Of a stretch of 57,761 nucleotides of DNA, positions 2,268 to 7,468 are shown in pieces (position 1 is the first letter of the stretch; each line of letters starts with the position of its first letter). The DNA lies in NCBI GenBank assembly GCA_003133745.1, contig PKZD01000038.1, positions 17,865-75,625 on the forward strand. The letters are read 5' to 3'. The notes under the pieces were generated by a model. That model was given only the letters and a program-made list of their open reading frames with translations. It had not been told where the DNA came from and searched no databases. The DNA comes from Candidatus Tyrphobacter aquilonaris. Its GTDB lineage: Bacteria > Vulcanimicrobiota > Vulcanimicrobiia > Vulcanimicrobiales > Vulcanimicrobiaceae. Position numbers and translations under genes: made by a program.

Positions 2268-3130
2268 AACGCGTCGACATCATCGGCGTTCCGATGGATC
2301 TGGGCGCGAGCCGTCGCGGCGTCGACATGGGACCATCGGCGGTGCGCTACGCGCGGCTGCACGAACGGCTGCAGGCGCTCGGCATTCAAGAAGTCGTCGA
2401 TCACGGCAACCTCTACGTTCCCATCCGCGAGGCGGCCGAGAGCGCCGATCAGCAGGTGCGCTACTACGACGTCATCGAGGAAGTCTGCGGGCGCCTGAGC
2501 GGCGTCGTCGAGCGCGTCGCGCGCGACGGCGGCATGCCGATCGTGCTCGGCGGAGACCACTCGATCGCCATCGGAACGCTCGCGGGTTTGCGGCGCGCCT
2601 ACGCTCAGGCTGCGGGATTGATCTGGATCGACGCGCACGCGGACATCAACAGCCCCGACAGCTCGCGGACCGGAAACGTGCACGGCATGCCGCTCTGGTT
2701 TGCGCTCGAGCGCGGCGATGCGGTCGCCGAGCAGACCGTCTTAATCGGCTTGCGAGACGTCGACGCGGCGGAGAAGCGGATTCTGCGCGAGCGAGGCGTG
2801 CGCGCCTTCTCGATGACGGACGTCGATAAGCTCGGCATGGCGCGCGTCGTCGAAGAGGCGCTGCGCATCGCCGGTGCGGACCGGCGTCCGCTGCACGTCT
2901 CGTTCGATCTCGACGGGATCGATCCAAGTGAGGCGCCCGGAACCGGAACGCCGGTCAAGGGTGGACTGAGTTATCGGGAGGCGCATCTCGCGATGGAGAT
3001 GCTCGCGGAATCGGGAAGGCTGGGATCGATCGAGATGGTCGAGATCAATCCGATCCTCGACCGTTCCAATCAAACTGCGTTGCTGGCCGTCGGGCTCATC
3101 TGCTCCGGCTTGGGGAAATCAATTCTGTGA
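2264..3130 (+). CDS. rocF: arginase
   Basis: [70 protein letters not shown] metal-binding motifs. Confidence 0.95.
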
Positions 3131-3375
3131 AAGAGACGAACATCACGCTCTATCAAGCGGAATGGTGTCCGTATTGTGCGCGCGTACGCGAGGCGATGAC
3201 GGACTTGCTCTTGGACTACAAGATCGTGAACGTGCCGCGCGCGCACTCCGAACGCACGCTGCTCACGGAGCTGTTCGGCAAGACCGGGATTCCGTCGATG
3301 ATCGACGGCGACGTAAAGATTGCCGACGACGACGACGCGATCATCAAGCATCTCAAGGGGAGGTACGGCAAGTGA
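3127..3375 (+). CDS. glutaredoxin family protein
   Basis: YQAEWCPYCARVREAM (CPYC) with thioredoxin fold GIPSMI cis-Pro; 4-nt overlap with arginase. Confidence 0.85.
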   Translation: MKETNITLYQAEWCPYCARVREAMTDLLLDYKIVNVPRAHSERTLLTELFGKTGIPSMIDGDVKIADDDDAIIKHLKGRYGK

Positions 3376-3809
3376 ACGAGACGATTTCCAGTTACGAACG
3401 CAACTGGGCGATGTGCTCGCACCTTCTCGGGCTGCTCATCTTCACGCACATCCCGTTCGCGAACGTCATCGGACCGCTCGTGCTCTACATCCAGGTTCGC
3501 GGCGAGAAGATGCCGTTCGCGACCGAACACGCGAAGGCGGCGTTGGACTTCCAGATCACCTTTTCGCTCGCGATGATCGTCTGGTTCATCGTGGGATTCG
3601 CGATCGTCGGGGCCGGCGTCGCGGCGCTCGCGGTCAACGGCGATCGCGATCCGGGGCCGCCGCTCGCTCTCATCGCCGGACTCTTCGTACTCGTCAGCTT
3701 GCTGCTGCTCGGCGTGCTCGCGAACGTCGTCTGCTGCATTCTCGGGGCGATCGCCGCGTCGGGCGGCCACCGCTTTCGCTACCCTCTCGCGATCCCGTTC
3801 GTGCGTTAG
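3372..3809 (+). CDS. DUF4870-like membrane protein
   Basis: VNETISSYERNWAMCSHLLGLLIFTHIPFANVIGPLVLYIQ...EHAKAALDFQITF; GTG start overlapping the previous stop. Confidence 0.75.
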   Translation: MNETISSYERNWAMCSHLLGLLIFTHIPFANVIGPLVLYIQVRGEKMPFATEHAKAALDFQITFSLAMIVWFIVGFAIVGAGVAALAVNGDRDPGPPLALIAGLFVLVSLLLLGVLANVVCCILGAIAASGGHRFRYPLAIPFVR

Positions 3810-3877: not shown

Positions 3878-4873
3878 GTGCTCAGACAGATCGCGCACAT
3901 CGCCTTGTACGTCGCATTCGGAAGCCTCGTGGCCGCGTGCAGCAGCAGCGGCGGCAGCGCTCCCAATCCTCCGAATCCAGGCCCCGTCCTCTCCGCGACG
4001 TTCACATCGGGGATCACGACGAACGCGTCCCTGTACGATGCCGTGAGCGGGCCCGACGGACGTATCTGGTTCACGGAGTTCTCGGCGGACAATCTCGCGG
4101 CCGTCACGACGAGCGGCACCGTGACGGAGTATCCAACCGGAGCGCTCACGCAACCCAACGGCATCGCAGTCGGGCCCGACGGCAACCTCTGGACCGGTGG
4201 CTTCGGGGCGAGCATCGAGAAGGTGACGACCTCCGGTAGCGTGACGACCTACGCGGTCGCCGGAGCGCACGTCGGGGACATCGTCTCCGGTCCCGGCGGA
4301 CTGCTCTGGTTCACGGATTACGGGAACAAGGAAATCGGCACGATCAGCACCACTGGAACGGTGCACGAGTATGTGTTGCCCGGCGGCTCGGATCCAAGCG
4401 GCATCGCCGTCGGCGCCGACGGCAATCTGTGGGTGACCGATTCCGGCAACAACGCGATCCTCAAGGTTTCACCGGCGGGATCGGTCCTCGCCTCGTATCC
4501 CAGCACGGTCTCCACCGGTGAGTCCCTGGAGTACATCGTCGCGGCGCCCGACGGCAACCTCTACTTCACGGTGTACGAAGACAACGCGTCCACGAACGAC
4601 GTCGTCGGACGCATCACGACCGGTGGAACGGTCACGAAGGCTGGAATGATCGCACCGCTCAGCTACCCCAACCGCATCATCGTCGGCAAAGACGGGAACC
4701 TCTACTTCACGGAGTACGCGACGGCGAAACTCGGCAAGGTCACGCTTGCGACGGGAACCGTCTCCGAATCATCGCCTGGAATCGCTTCCTACGGCAACTC
4801 CGCGATCGCCGCCGGATCCGATGGGCGCTTATGGGTTGGCGGAACGCAGACGATCTGGGCGCTATCCTACTAA
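3878..4873 (+). CDS. Virginiamycin B lyase-like / NHL beta-propeller lipoprotein
   Basis: GTG start, VLRQIAHIALYVAFGSLVAACSSSG lipobox; repeated PDGNLWFTE-like blades. Confidence 0.8.
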   Translation: MLRQIAHIALYVAFGSLVAACSSSGGSAPNPPNPGPVLSATFTSGITTNASLYDAVSGPDGRIWFTEFSADNLAAVTTSGTVTEYPTGALTQPNGIAVGPDGNLWTGGFGASIEKVTTSGSVTTYAVAGAHVGDIVSGPGGLLWFTDYGNKEIGTISTTGTVHEYVLPGGSDPSGIAVGADGNLWVTDSGNNAILKVSPAGSVLASYPSTVSTGESLEYIVAAPDGNLYFTVYEDNASTNDVVGRITTGGTVTKAGMIAPLSYPNRIIVGKDGNLYFTEYATAKLGKVTLATGTVSESSPGIASYGNSAIAAGSDGRLWVGGTQTIWALSY

Positions 4874-5010
4874 TCGGCTTCAGCGCCCCAGGCGTCCCAG
4901 CCGGTGACGCGCGAGCGAGCGAACAGTTCGACGCGTGACCGTTTCCCGCAGAGCGCTTCGATGCGCTTTCGAAAAATCGCCGGTTTTTCGCTGTGCGCGG
5001 CGCGCGGATC
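4870..5010 (-). pseudogene. C-terminal remnant of an MT-A70 family methyltransferase
   Basis: Reverse strand, preceded by an in-frame stop: SDPRAAHSEKPAIFRKRIEALCGKRSRVELFARSRVTGWDAWGAEAD*; hand-aligned 35/45 identical to the C-terminus of the intact MT-A70 gene at 5964-6629. Confidence 0.85.
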
Positions 5011-5031
5011 AGAACGCGCGTCCGCTCACGA

Positions 5032-5952
5032 CTAAAACAGCCACGGTAGTTCCTCGCGGCTCGCAGGATCACCATGAATTTCACCATCGATACACCAGAT
5101 GGAACCGATGTTGATTTCGCGTAGGAAGGACACCATTTCTTGCGGCACGACGACGCCGAACATCCCGTAGAGCCGAACGTCATGCTCGAACCCAGCCGTC
5201 TTCCGGTGTAGGAACCGATAGTGATAGAGCTGGGCTATGGCGCCCCGTATCTGCCGAATCAAGTCATCCTCAACGCTCTTCATCTCGAAGATGGCTCCAA
5301 AGCCATTGGTGCGGACCAACGCATCTGCGTACTTCGTGCGCGTACAGCTAAGCCCGGCAGCTTGCGCCTTTCTCTTCACTGCGACGACGAGGGCATGGTG
5401 ATTGCGCGTGCGCCGTTCGTTGGCTTGGCGGCGCGCTTCCGGGTCGCTGATGAAGTCGCCTGGGGCAGGTGCGCGAGGCGGCTCCTCCGGTATATCCGTC
5501 TCTGCCGGCGCTGCATCGTGGTCCGCTTCGTCGGATTGCAAGACGGATTCGAAGGCTTCCTCAAGCCGGGAATTAAGCTTGATTGCCTCGGCCTTGATCA
5601 CGTGCTCGTAGTTTTCGGGTACGGTTGTAGCGCCGGCTGGCAATGCGGAAAGTAGAAGCCGCCCACGCTCGGTTATGCGAAGGCGCTGTCTTGGCTGCGT
5701 CCGTTCTTTGTCTAAGCGATCGCTAGAATCGAACCACTCATTGCCATCGTATGATATCTGGAGTCTAACAAAATCTAAGTGAACGATGTTCCTGCCCGCG
5801 TCTCGATTGGACAAGACGTTCCACTGCCCGACGTCTTGGGTAAAGCGTGCCTGAACTCTCTCCCTCAAGGCGGCTGTGGTGAGGGAACCTTCGGCGCTCT
5901 CTGCAAGGGCACGTAGCGCCGGAACATCGGTGTCTCGCTCCGGAATTGCCAC
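5032..5952 (-). CDS. Putative PD-(D/E)XK-fold nuclease, candidate restriction endonuclease partner of the adjacent MT-A70
   Basis: KYADALVRTNGFGAIFEMKSVEDDLIRQIRGAIAQLYHYRF: D(x12)ExK followed by the R..IGQLYEYR-like helix seen in many PD-(D/E)XK enzymes; lies 11 nt after the methyltransferase stop; visibly lower GC. Confidence 0.6.
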   Translation of the reverse strand: MAIPERDTDVPALRALAESAEGSLTTAALRERVQARFTQDVGQWNVLSNRDAGRNIVHLDFVRLQISYDGNEWFDSSDRLDKERTQPRQRLRITERGRLLLSALPAGATTVPENYEHVIKAEAIKLNSRLEEAFESVLQSDEADHDAAPAETDIPEEPPRAPAPGDFISDPEARRQANERRTRNHHALVVAVKRKAQAAGLSCTRTKYADALVRTNGFGAIFEMKSVEDDLIRQIRGAIAQLYHYRFLHRKTAGFEHDVRLYGMFGVVVPQEMVSFLREINIGSIWCIDGEIHGDPASREELPWLF

Positions 5953-5963
5953 GAATCACGATT

Positions 5964-6629
5964 TCATTCGAGGAGCATCCCTGGATCCGCGTCGAGCTTG
6001 CCGGCCTCTGCTCCCCAGTTATCCCAGCCCGTTGCGCTGGATCTCGCAAAAAGCTCGATGCGCGGCCGATCGCCGCAGAGTTGCTCGATGCGCTTTCTAA
6101 ATACCGCCGGCTTTTCGCTATGGCTGGCGCGAGGATGAAGCACCACCTGGGGCTGAGCCAGATCAAGGATTGGGAACGGTCTTCCCGTGGGCTTGGTTGT
6201 GGCGGATAGTAACAGTTCCGTCGTTGGTTTTGTAAATGTGGGCAGAACGCCTTGACCGTTAATGATTGCGCCGCCCCGGTTGATCTTTACCCACACGTAA
6301 GCGATACCACGATAGTGAAGACCCCAGCGTGCTATGAGTTCTATTGCAAAGTCAAGGCGGGGGCATGTAGCCCACAAGAAAACAGCCGCATTCTTGTTCA
6401 AGATGCGTTGTATGTCGATTGCTGCTAGTTCGTCAAGATCCATCAATGGATAGTGCTTCGCGGCGGCAGCATCTTTTATCGGACTGCCATAATAATACCA
6501 GGGCGGATCGACGTAAGCTATATCGTAGGTGCTGGCTGGAAGCGGCGGCAACTCAACGTGCGGCTTGGCGACCGATCGCTTTGCAAGGCGCCGGAGGTGC
6601 ACGATATTCTTTGGCGACAGCGCGGTCAC
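5964..6629 (-). CDS. MT-A70 family adenine-N6 methyltransferase
   Basis: YDIAYVDPPWYYYG (DPPW motif), PLMDLDELAAIDIQRI, VFLWATCPRLDFAIELIARWG, FARSSATGWDNWGAEA; start is GTG/TTG, so ambiguous by a few codons. Confidence 0.9.
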   Translation of the reverse strand: MTALSPKNIVHLRRLAKRSVAKPHVELPPLPASTYDIAYVDPPWYYYGSPIKDAAAAKHYPLMDLDELAAIDIQRILNKNAAVFLWATCPRLDFAIELIARWGLHYRGIAYVWVKINRGGAIINGQGVLPTFTKPTTELLLSATTKPTGRPFPILDLAQPQVVLHPRASHSEKPAVFRKRIEQLCGDRPRIELFARSSATGWDNWGAEAGKLDADPGMLLE

Positions 6630-6682: not shown

Positions 6683-7468
6683 TTACCAGAGGTCGGGCCA
6701 GTGCGAGGCGACGAGCAGGGCGACGGCAGCGCCGCAGAACGTCGCGAGCAGGTTCACGAGGTCGTTGTCGAACCAGCGCAGACCGCGGAACATCTTCGTC
6801 TGCGTGCCGCAGGAATGGATCTCGGTCTCGCACGGGCGCGCGCATGTCGGGCACCAGTGCAAGGCCTGCGCGCTCGCGCCGAGGATCGAGTCGAAGAGGC
6901 TGCCGGCGACGCCGCCGATTGCGACGGGCCAGAACGGCGCAAGGTGCACGTCGTATGCGACGAGCGCGATGAAGGCAGCGCCCGCGCACTGCGCGATCGT
7001 CCCCGGAAGTGAAATGCCGCCGGAGAGTCCGCTCTGCACCGGCCGAAACGTGAGAATCGAGCGGACGCCGCGCTGCGCGAGCGAGCCGATCTCGCTCGAC
7101 CACGTGTCGGCGGTGGCGGCTGCGATCGCTCCCGCGAATGCGAGCGCCAGCGGCACGTCCGTCGTTCGGCTCAAGGCGATGCACACCCCGGCGACGCCGC
7201 CGTTTGCGAAGACTTGCCAGGCGTCGCGCGGACCCTGCTTTCCAAAATCGATGAGACGGCGCTTACGGCGCGAGCCGAGGCGCGAGAGCAACGACGACGT
7301 GATGAAGAACGCGAGCAGGACCGCGGCCGCCGGCCAGCCGTCGACGCCGAAGGTGACCGTGCCGATCGCAAATGCGGCGAAGGCTCCGCTCGGCGTCAAC
7401 GCACCGAGCGCATACGCGAGCGAGACGATCCCGAGCGAGGCGATGGCTGCGATCTCGATCTGGATCAT
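6683..7468 (-). CDS. DUF92 / TMEM19 / VTE6-like family membrane protein
   Basis: ALGALTPSGAFAAFAIGTVTFG, ATADTWSSEIGSLA, GVAGSLFDSILGASAQ typical DUF92 motifs; 4-nt overlap with cobA-hemD. Confidence 0.85.
   Translation of the reverse strand: MIQIEIAAIASLGIVSLAYALGALTPSGAFAAFAIGTVTFGVDGWPAAAVLLAFFITSSLLSRLGSRRKRRLIDFGKQGPRDAWQVFANGGVAGVCIALSRTTDVPLALAFAGAIAAATADTWSSEIGSLAQRGVRSILTFRPVQSGLSGGISLPGTIAQCAGAAFIALVAYDVHLAPFWPVAIGGVAGSLFDSILGASAQALHWCPTCARPCETEIHSCGTQTKMFRGLRWFDNDLVNLLATFCGAAVALLVASHWPDLW

Follow-up and report, generated by a model that had tools for sequence, protein, structure and literature searches.

Probable scar of an in-place methylase replacement between glutaredoxin and DUF92 genes in Candidatus Tyrphobacter aquilonaris

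Within the 57,761-nucleotide stretch of DNA analyzed here (the window), from the soil bacterium Candidatus Tyrphobacter aquilonaris, an intact MT-A70 adenine methyltransferase gene and a putative nuclease gene, paired on the same strand, are followed by the C-terminal end of a second MT-A70 gene, called the fossil below (Table 1). The intact methylase scores 85.7 bits against the Pfam family PF05063, and its catalytic motif is present as YVDPPW. The small membrane protein on the left has a homologue in genome G003 that also lies behind the glutaredoxin gene. The Vgb-like gene, with a host-like GC3 of 0.82, was acquired separately. Its best relatives, 62-65% identical, are in genomes G001, G037 and G039, at other places. 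No Rfam elements or terminator-like sites were found in the window, and it carries no recombinase gene between the site flanks.

Table 1. Features of the methylase-nuclease locus (window coordinates)
Feature	Position	Strand	Remark
Glutaredoxin-like gene	3127..3375	(+)	Borders the empty site of relatives on the left
Small membrane protein	3372..3809	(+)	Homologue lies between the glutaredoxin and methylase genes in G004 and G007
Vgb-like (virginiamycin B lyase family) gene	3878..4873	(+)	Stop overlaps the fossil stop; absent here in relatives
MT-A70 methyltransferase fossil (C-terminal quarter)	4861..5028	(-)	From sequence reading, genome search, Pfam and alignment
Putative nuclease, 306 aa, GTG start	5032..5952	(-)	Starts 11 bp downstream of the methylase; PD-(D/E)XK domain at the C-terminus
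Intact MT-A70 adenine methyltransferase, 221 aa, DPPW motif	5964..6629	(-)	GC3 0.59 versus 0.83 in neighbours
Fossil-homologous segment of the intact gene	6002..6136	(-)	73% DNA identity
DUF92 membrane protein, right flank	6683..7468	(-)	Genus type up to the last residue

The fossil starts immediately downstream of the nuclease stop codon. It retains an intact reading frame (4873-5010, minus strand) encoding DPRAAHSEKPAIFRKRIEALCGKRSRVELFARSRVTGWDAWGAEAD and a stop, and its upstream part, up to about 5028, is ruined. The initial annotation had reported that 35 of the 45 encoded residues are identical to those of the intact MT-A70 C-terminus, that an in-frame TGA precedes this frame and that its stop codon overlaps that of the convergent Vgb-like gene; all three statements are borne out, and the nuclease's own TAG lies six bases farther up from the TGA. 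At the DNA level, the fossil and the corresponding segment of the intact gene align in frame over 135 nt with 0 gaps and 73% identity, forming an imperfect direct repeat on the same strand, 1.1 kb apart, that flanks the nuclease gene; no direct repeats longer than these methylase ends were found. The alignment score is 126, compared to a best score of 38 among 100 shuffles. With the intact methylase as query, a genome-wide search returned two places only, the gene itself and the fossil (E 7.8e-20, residues 159-214, with internal stops). The 45 amino acids of the fossil alone match PF05063 (E 5.6e-7, 30.1 bits), and both copies are above the curated cut-off of this family, 23.9 bits. The fossil is a real remnant of a second MT-A70 gene. 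Read by eye, its homology fades toward 5028 and a base appears to have been lost ahead of the DPR codons, i.e., it may additionally be frameshifted.

The fossil differs from the intact copy by 36 bases, mostly synonymously, and 9 aligned codons alter the amino acid. When 36 random changes were applied to the intact sequence in a neutral simulation of 20,000 runs, the mean number of amino-acid changes was 22.3 and the minimum over all runs was 14, compared to the 9 observed. Synonymous divergence amounts to 0.68 per site, close to saturation. The small number of amino-acid changes combined with near-saturated synonymous sites indicates that the two methylases split long ago and that both have been functional for most of the time since. 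Judging from this substitution pattern, the fossil was a separate working methylase under purifying selection until recently, and it died recently.

The initial annotation had contrasted a host-like GC content of the fossil with a lower one of the intact copy. The contrast holds for the gene body (0.66-0.67 for the fossil versus 0.56 for the whole intact methylase), but not for the homologous 45 codons, where GC3 is 0.71 in the fossil and 0.62 in the intact copy (p=0.5). The base composition of both the methylase and the nuclease is foreign: their GC3 values are 0.59 and 0.64, compared to 0.83 in the neighbours (p<1e-11). Along the intact methylase, the first 30 codons have a host-like GC3 of about 0.75-0.77, followed after about codon 30, at the DPPW motif, by a fall to 0.53 that most relatives do not show; codons 31-150 are foreign in composition. 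It should be noted that a somewhat low GC content is frequent among MT-A70 genes of the genus, although the window copy is the lowest, in its middle part.

The partner protein has a putative nuclease fold with catalytic residues. Its C-terminal domain is predicted with good model confidence and has a PD-(D/E)XK-like order of secondary-structure elements; D210, E223 and K225 are invariant in four relatives, and Foldseek matches of moderate score include XisH, the R.BspD6I small subunit, PspGI and McrC. The N-terminal 140 amino acids are modelled with low confidence, and no domain could be named there. Searches of Pfam, NCBIfam, PADLOC, PHROGs, plasmids and phages returned no match for this protein, and it has no profile match to the MunI endonuclease family PF11407. 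A scan of genome contigs revealed no close relative and three distant ones, 36-43% identical over the C-terminal half, all in Ca. Eremiobacterota, none adjoining an MT-A70 gene and one fused to MrcB_N; a second pair of such a nuclease with MT-A70 was not found in other genomes. The nuclease belongs to an undescribed, unnamed PD-(D/E)XK group. In genome G070, a relative and a neighbouring gene of 225 aa lie between two serine recombinase genes (L122:2507-8027), which is likely to be a mobile island.

We compared the site with that of other Ca. Eremiobacterota genomes. The following states were found: (i) an empty site, seen in 13 genomes from other genera in which this MT-A70 is missing, with the glutaredoxin and DUF92 genes adjacent, facing each other and mostly less than 100 bp apart; (ii) one MT-A70 gene between glutaredoxin and DUF92 in 29 genomes, representing the genus of the window and several other genera, with an agmatinase/arginase-like gene and hemDX-hemA as outer flanks. 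At the occupied site MT-A70 is nearly always solitary, without a nuclease. All 7 of the 7 genus mates have a single MT-A70 there (one copy cut by a contig end), and neither the window's nuclease nor the fossil was present at the site in any relative examined, in keeping with the earlier proposal that a resident methylase was displaced in place by a methylase-nuclease module. The open reading frames in the inspected gaps encode phospholipase-like, TonB-like, acetyltransferase and PIN-type proteins, and no restriction-type nuclease was found in them except for a MunI-like one in genome G002.

In G002, this nuclease of 178 aa lies behind the methylase in a 604-bp insert that is missing in the sister genome G005, an independent case of gain or loss of a nuclease partner. 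A related MunI-like nuclease is found beside MT-A70 in G033, at another place. Both endonuclease genes, L022:9278-9811(-) in G002 and L033:8026-8595(+) in G033, are convergent with MT-A70. Pfam recognizes the two proteins weakly (E 0.025 and 0.0016, respectively), and a two-sequence profile built from them matches MunI (1d02) with E 2.8e-5; in this match the ExK and GNAxER motifs line up. The hexamer CAATTG, the MunI site, is not clearly depleted in the window, with 5 occurrences versus 6.6 expected, the window being short for such counts.

Selfish or defence genes of various kinds have accumulated at the site. Genome G007 has a toxin-antitoxin-like pair, a PIN-type protein and a small antitoxin-like protein, between DUF92 and MT-A70 (L026:11243-12012), and G002 has a PIN protein upstream of MT-A70 (L022:8098-8523). 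In G080 and G082, a phospholipase-C-like gene of 587 aa lies between glutaredoxin and MT-A70 (L127:3663-5426 and L130:5766-7529).

The window copies and those of the genus differ in lineage and orientation. The six complete genus copies are all convergent with DUF92 and make up a single group, which has E/DHSRKP close to the C-terminus, whereas the intact copy and the fossil of the window are in tandem with DUF92 and have the SHSEKP/AHSEKP form of another clade (clade A), which is common in genus g46, always in tandem orientation. Placement of the intact copy in the genus group is rejected by the AU test (p=8e-5); for the fossil, with 45 amino acids, the rejection is weak (p=0.03). The test does not reject the two as sisters (p=0.28), and they may be each other's nearest known relatives. 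The nearest genes to the intact copy, with weak support, are those of G071, G086 and G072, from another genus, and relatives in IMG/VR reach at most 55% identity. The initial annotation had expected relatives to carry a single methylase ending like the fossil against the Vgb-like gene. The single MT-A70 was found, but in opposite orientation and with C-termini that are not the closest to the fossil (57-67% identity over 46 aa for genus mates, compared to 64-76% for clade-A genes; G003, with a contig ending after codon 39, is left out), and no genus mate has an MT-A70 gene adjoining a Vgb-like gene at the site. Given the mismatch in clade and the opposite orientation, the fossil is not the standard resident copy of the genus. 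In the species tree the window falls within the genus, branching between G007 and the remaining members; the genus mates are all of the convergent type except G003, which is the one further genome of the genus to carry a tandem copy. It follows that the genus-type gene had already given way to a tandem gene of clade A when the fossil arose, or did so in that very event; there were either two successive replacements or the import of a composite block. The start of the tandem MT-A70 of G003 (L028:1-105) overlaps the DUF92 stop, and its sister G004 is of the convergent type; thus, orientation was switched between sister species.

We consider it probable that the locus is the scar of an in-place replacement, in which a clade-A MT-A70 gene was overwritten by a foreign operon of MT-A70 and putative nuclease. 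The spot between glutaredoxin and DUF92 would be an old landing site for MT-A70 in the family, and the former resident a functional clade-A gene in DUF92 direction that ended on the stop of the Vgb-like gene. The newcomer would be a two-gene operon (MT-A70, 11 bp, PD-(D/E)XK nuclease), a putative Type II restriction-modification system that, by its gene content, is predicted to restrict DNA. The left joint would lie just behind the DUF92 stop or within the first codons of the methylase or after about its codon 30. The DUF92 protein is genus-type to its last residue, which places the beginning of the import behind it; the fall in GC3 may point to a joint after about codon 30. The right joint would fall within the old gene, immediately after the nuclease stop, leaving the last 45 codons of that gene.

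The earlier proposal of recombination through the conserved 3' end is unlikely. The longest identical run between the two methylase 3' ends is 13 bp, and a double crossover through both ends would yield a chimeric methylase without the nuclease instead of leaving it between the copies. Thirteen identical bases are too few for efficient homologous recombination. A one-sided joining, homology-facilitated on one side and illegitimate on the other, fits better, and a single such step would give the observed order. Post-segregational killing perhaps keeps the newcomer in place; it is established that restriction-modification modules resist replacement by killing (PMC3031569).

Several observations count against this replacement reading: no genome among those compared was found to show the earlier arrangement that this reading predicts (DUF92, clade-A methylase, Vgb-like gene), the sisterhood of fossil and intact copy is not rejected, the distant relatives of the nuclease are not beside methylases, and the low GC content is shared in part by the genus. 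The strongest alternative is that this genome received the block of Vgb-like gene, fossil, nuclease and methylase as a finished composite, the replacement having taken place earlier in an unsampled relative. The genus mates, with another clade, another orientation and no Vgb-like gene at this spot, argue for such an import, as at least two changes are needed otherwise. However, the block is not uniform, the host-like Vgb-like gene standing beside a foreign methylase and nuclease, and no such block was found in 149 genomes of the phylum; we regard this history as rather unlikely, with an appreciable chance nonetheless.

Target duplication deserves less credence. Here a DNA circle with a methylase 3' end and the nuclease would enter the resident gene by a single crossover, giving a methylase with a resident 5' end and a foreign 3' end, and the fossil would be the displaced resident 3' end. 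The direct repeats around the nuclease and the host-like start of the intact gene (GC3 0.77 in the first 30 codons), with its drop at the DPPW motif unlike most relatives, suit this scheme, but the foreign part includes codons 31-150, well beyond the 3' end, and the repeats share at most 13 identical consecutive bases. It is very improbable that an ancestral methylase-nuclease-methylase module, comparable to restriction systems with two methylases, lost its second methylase by decay: the long functional divergence of the two copies and their common strand and order would agree with it, but only a 3' end remains, broken directly behind the nuclease stop, no relative has the triple, and single clade-A genes at the site suffice. 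Decay after a tandem duplication of the present methylase, the competing explanation named by the initial annotation, matches the common strand and the 1.1 kb spacing but is hardly credible, given that a recent duplication is excluded by the purifying-selection pattern and that the DNA of the fossil is no nearer to its neighbour (73%) than to the genes of G083, G070 and G020 (75-76%).

New here are the site, the nuclease group and, on the replacement reading, the scar of a methylase-for-methylase displacement. Replacement of restriction-modification systems is usually inferred from strain comparisons, whereas here the newcomer and the readable end of the loser would be present in one genome. 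The empty site, the solo methylase and the independent gain or loss of nucleases are visible in relatives, so the order of events (methylase first, nuclease later) can be tested, and the nuclease group may supply the endonuclease of a new restriction system. Such scars allow reconstruction of defence-gene swaps at a fixed chromosomal spot. A speculative extension, to which we give little weight, is that the site is a methylase-centred exchange slot, where an MT-A70 gene persists at all times but its lineage, its orientation and its restriction partner are exchanged, and that the fossil 3' end would permit excision of the nuclease by recombination, with restoration of a full-length methylase, so that the nuclease is shed without killing the cell.

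Among known systems, MunI is represented in these genomes by the endonucleases of G002 and G033, which lie beside the same kind of MT-A70; the window nuclease is not MunI-like. In Vibrio cholerae T6SS effector-immunity modules, a newcomer displaces the resident, the 3' part of which is pushed downstream, and homology-facilitated illegitimate recombination was proposed (PMC5361080); unlike there, the modules here are methylase-nuclease, and what is left over is the end of a dead gene instead of a functional immunity gene. Insertion of restriction-modification systems with long target duplication, as Nobusato et al. (2000) are cited in PMC3031569, places the insert between direct repeats. The window insert is also flanked by direct repeats, but these are 73% identical homologues, not a fresh target copy. 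The minimal mobile elements of Neisseria, in the account of Saunders and Snyder (2002) given in PMC3898611, are varied whole-gene cassettes between the same two conserved genes. The present site resembles them in that two conserved genes enclose alternative cassettes, or here also nothing at all, without mobility genes or terminal repeats; this likeness is one of gene content and order. Unlike in Neisseria, one family, MT-A70, is kept here across genera, and it is the lineage, the orientation and the nuclease partner that vary.
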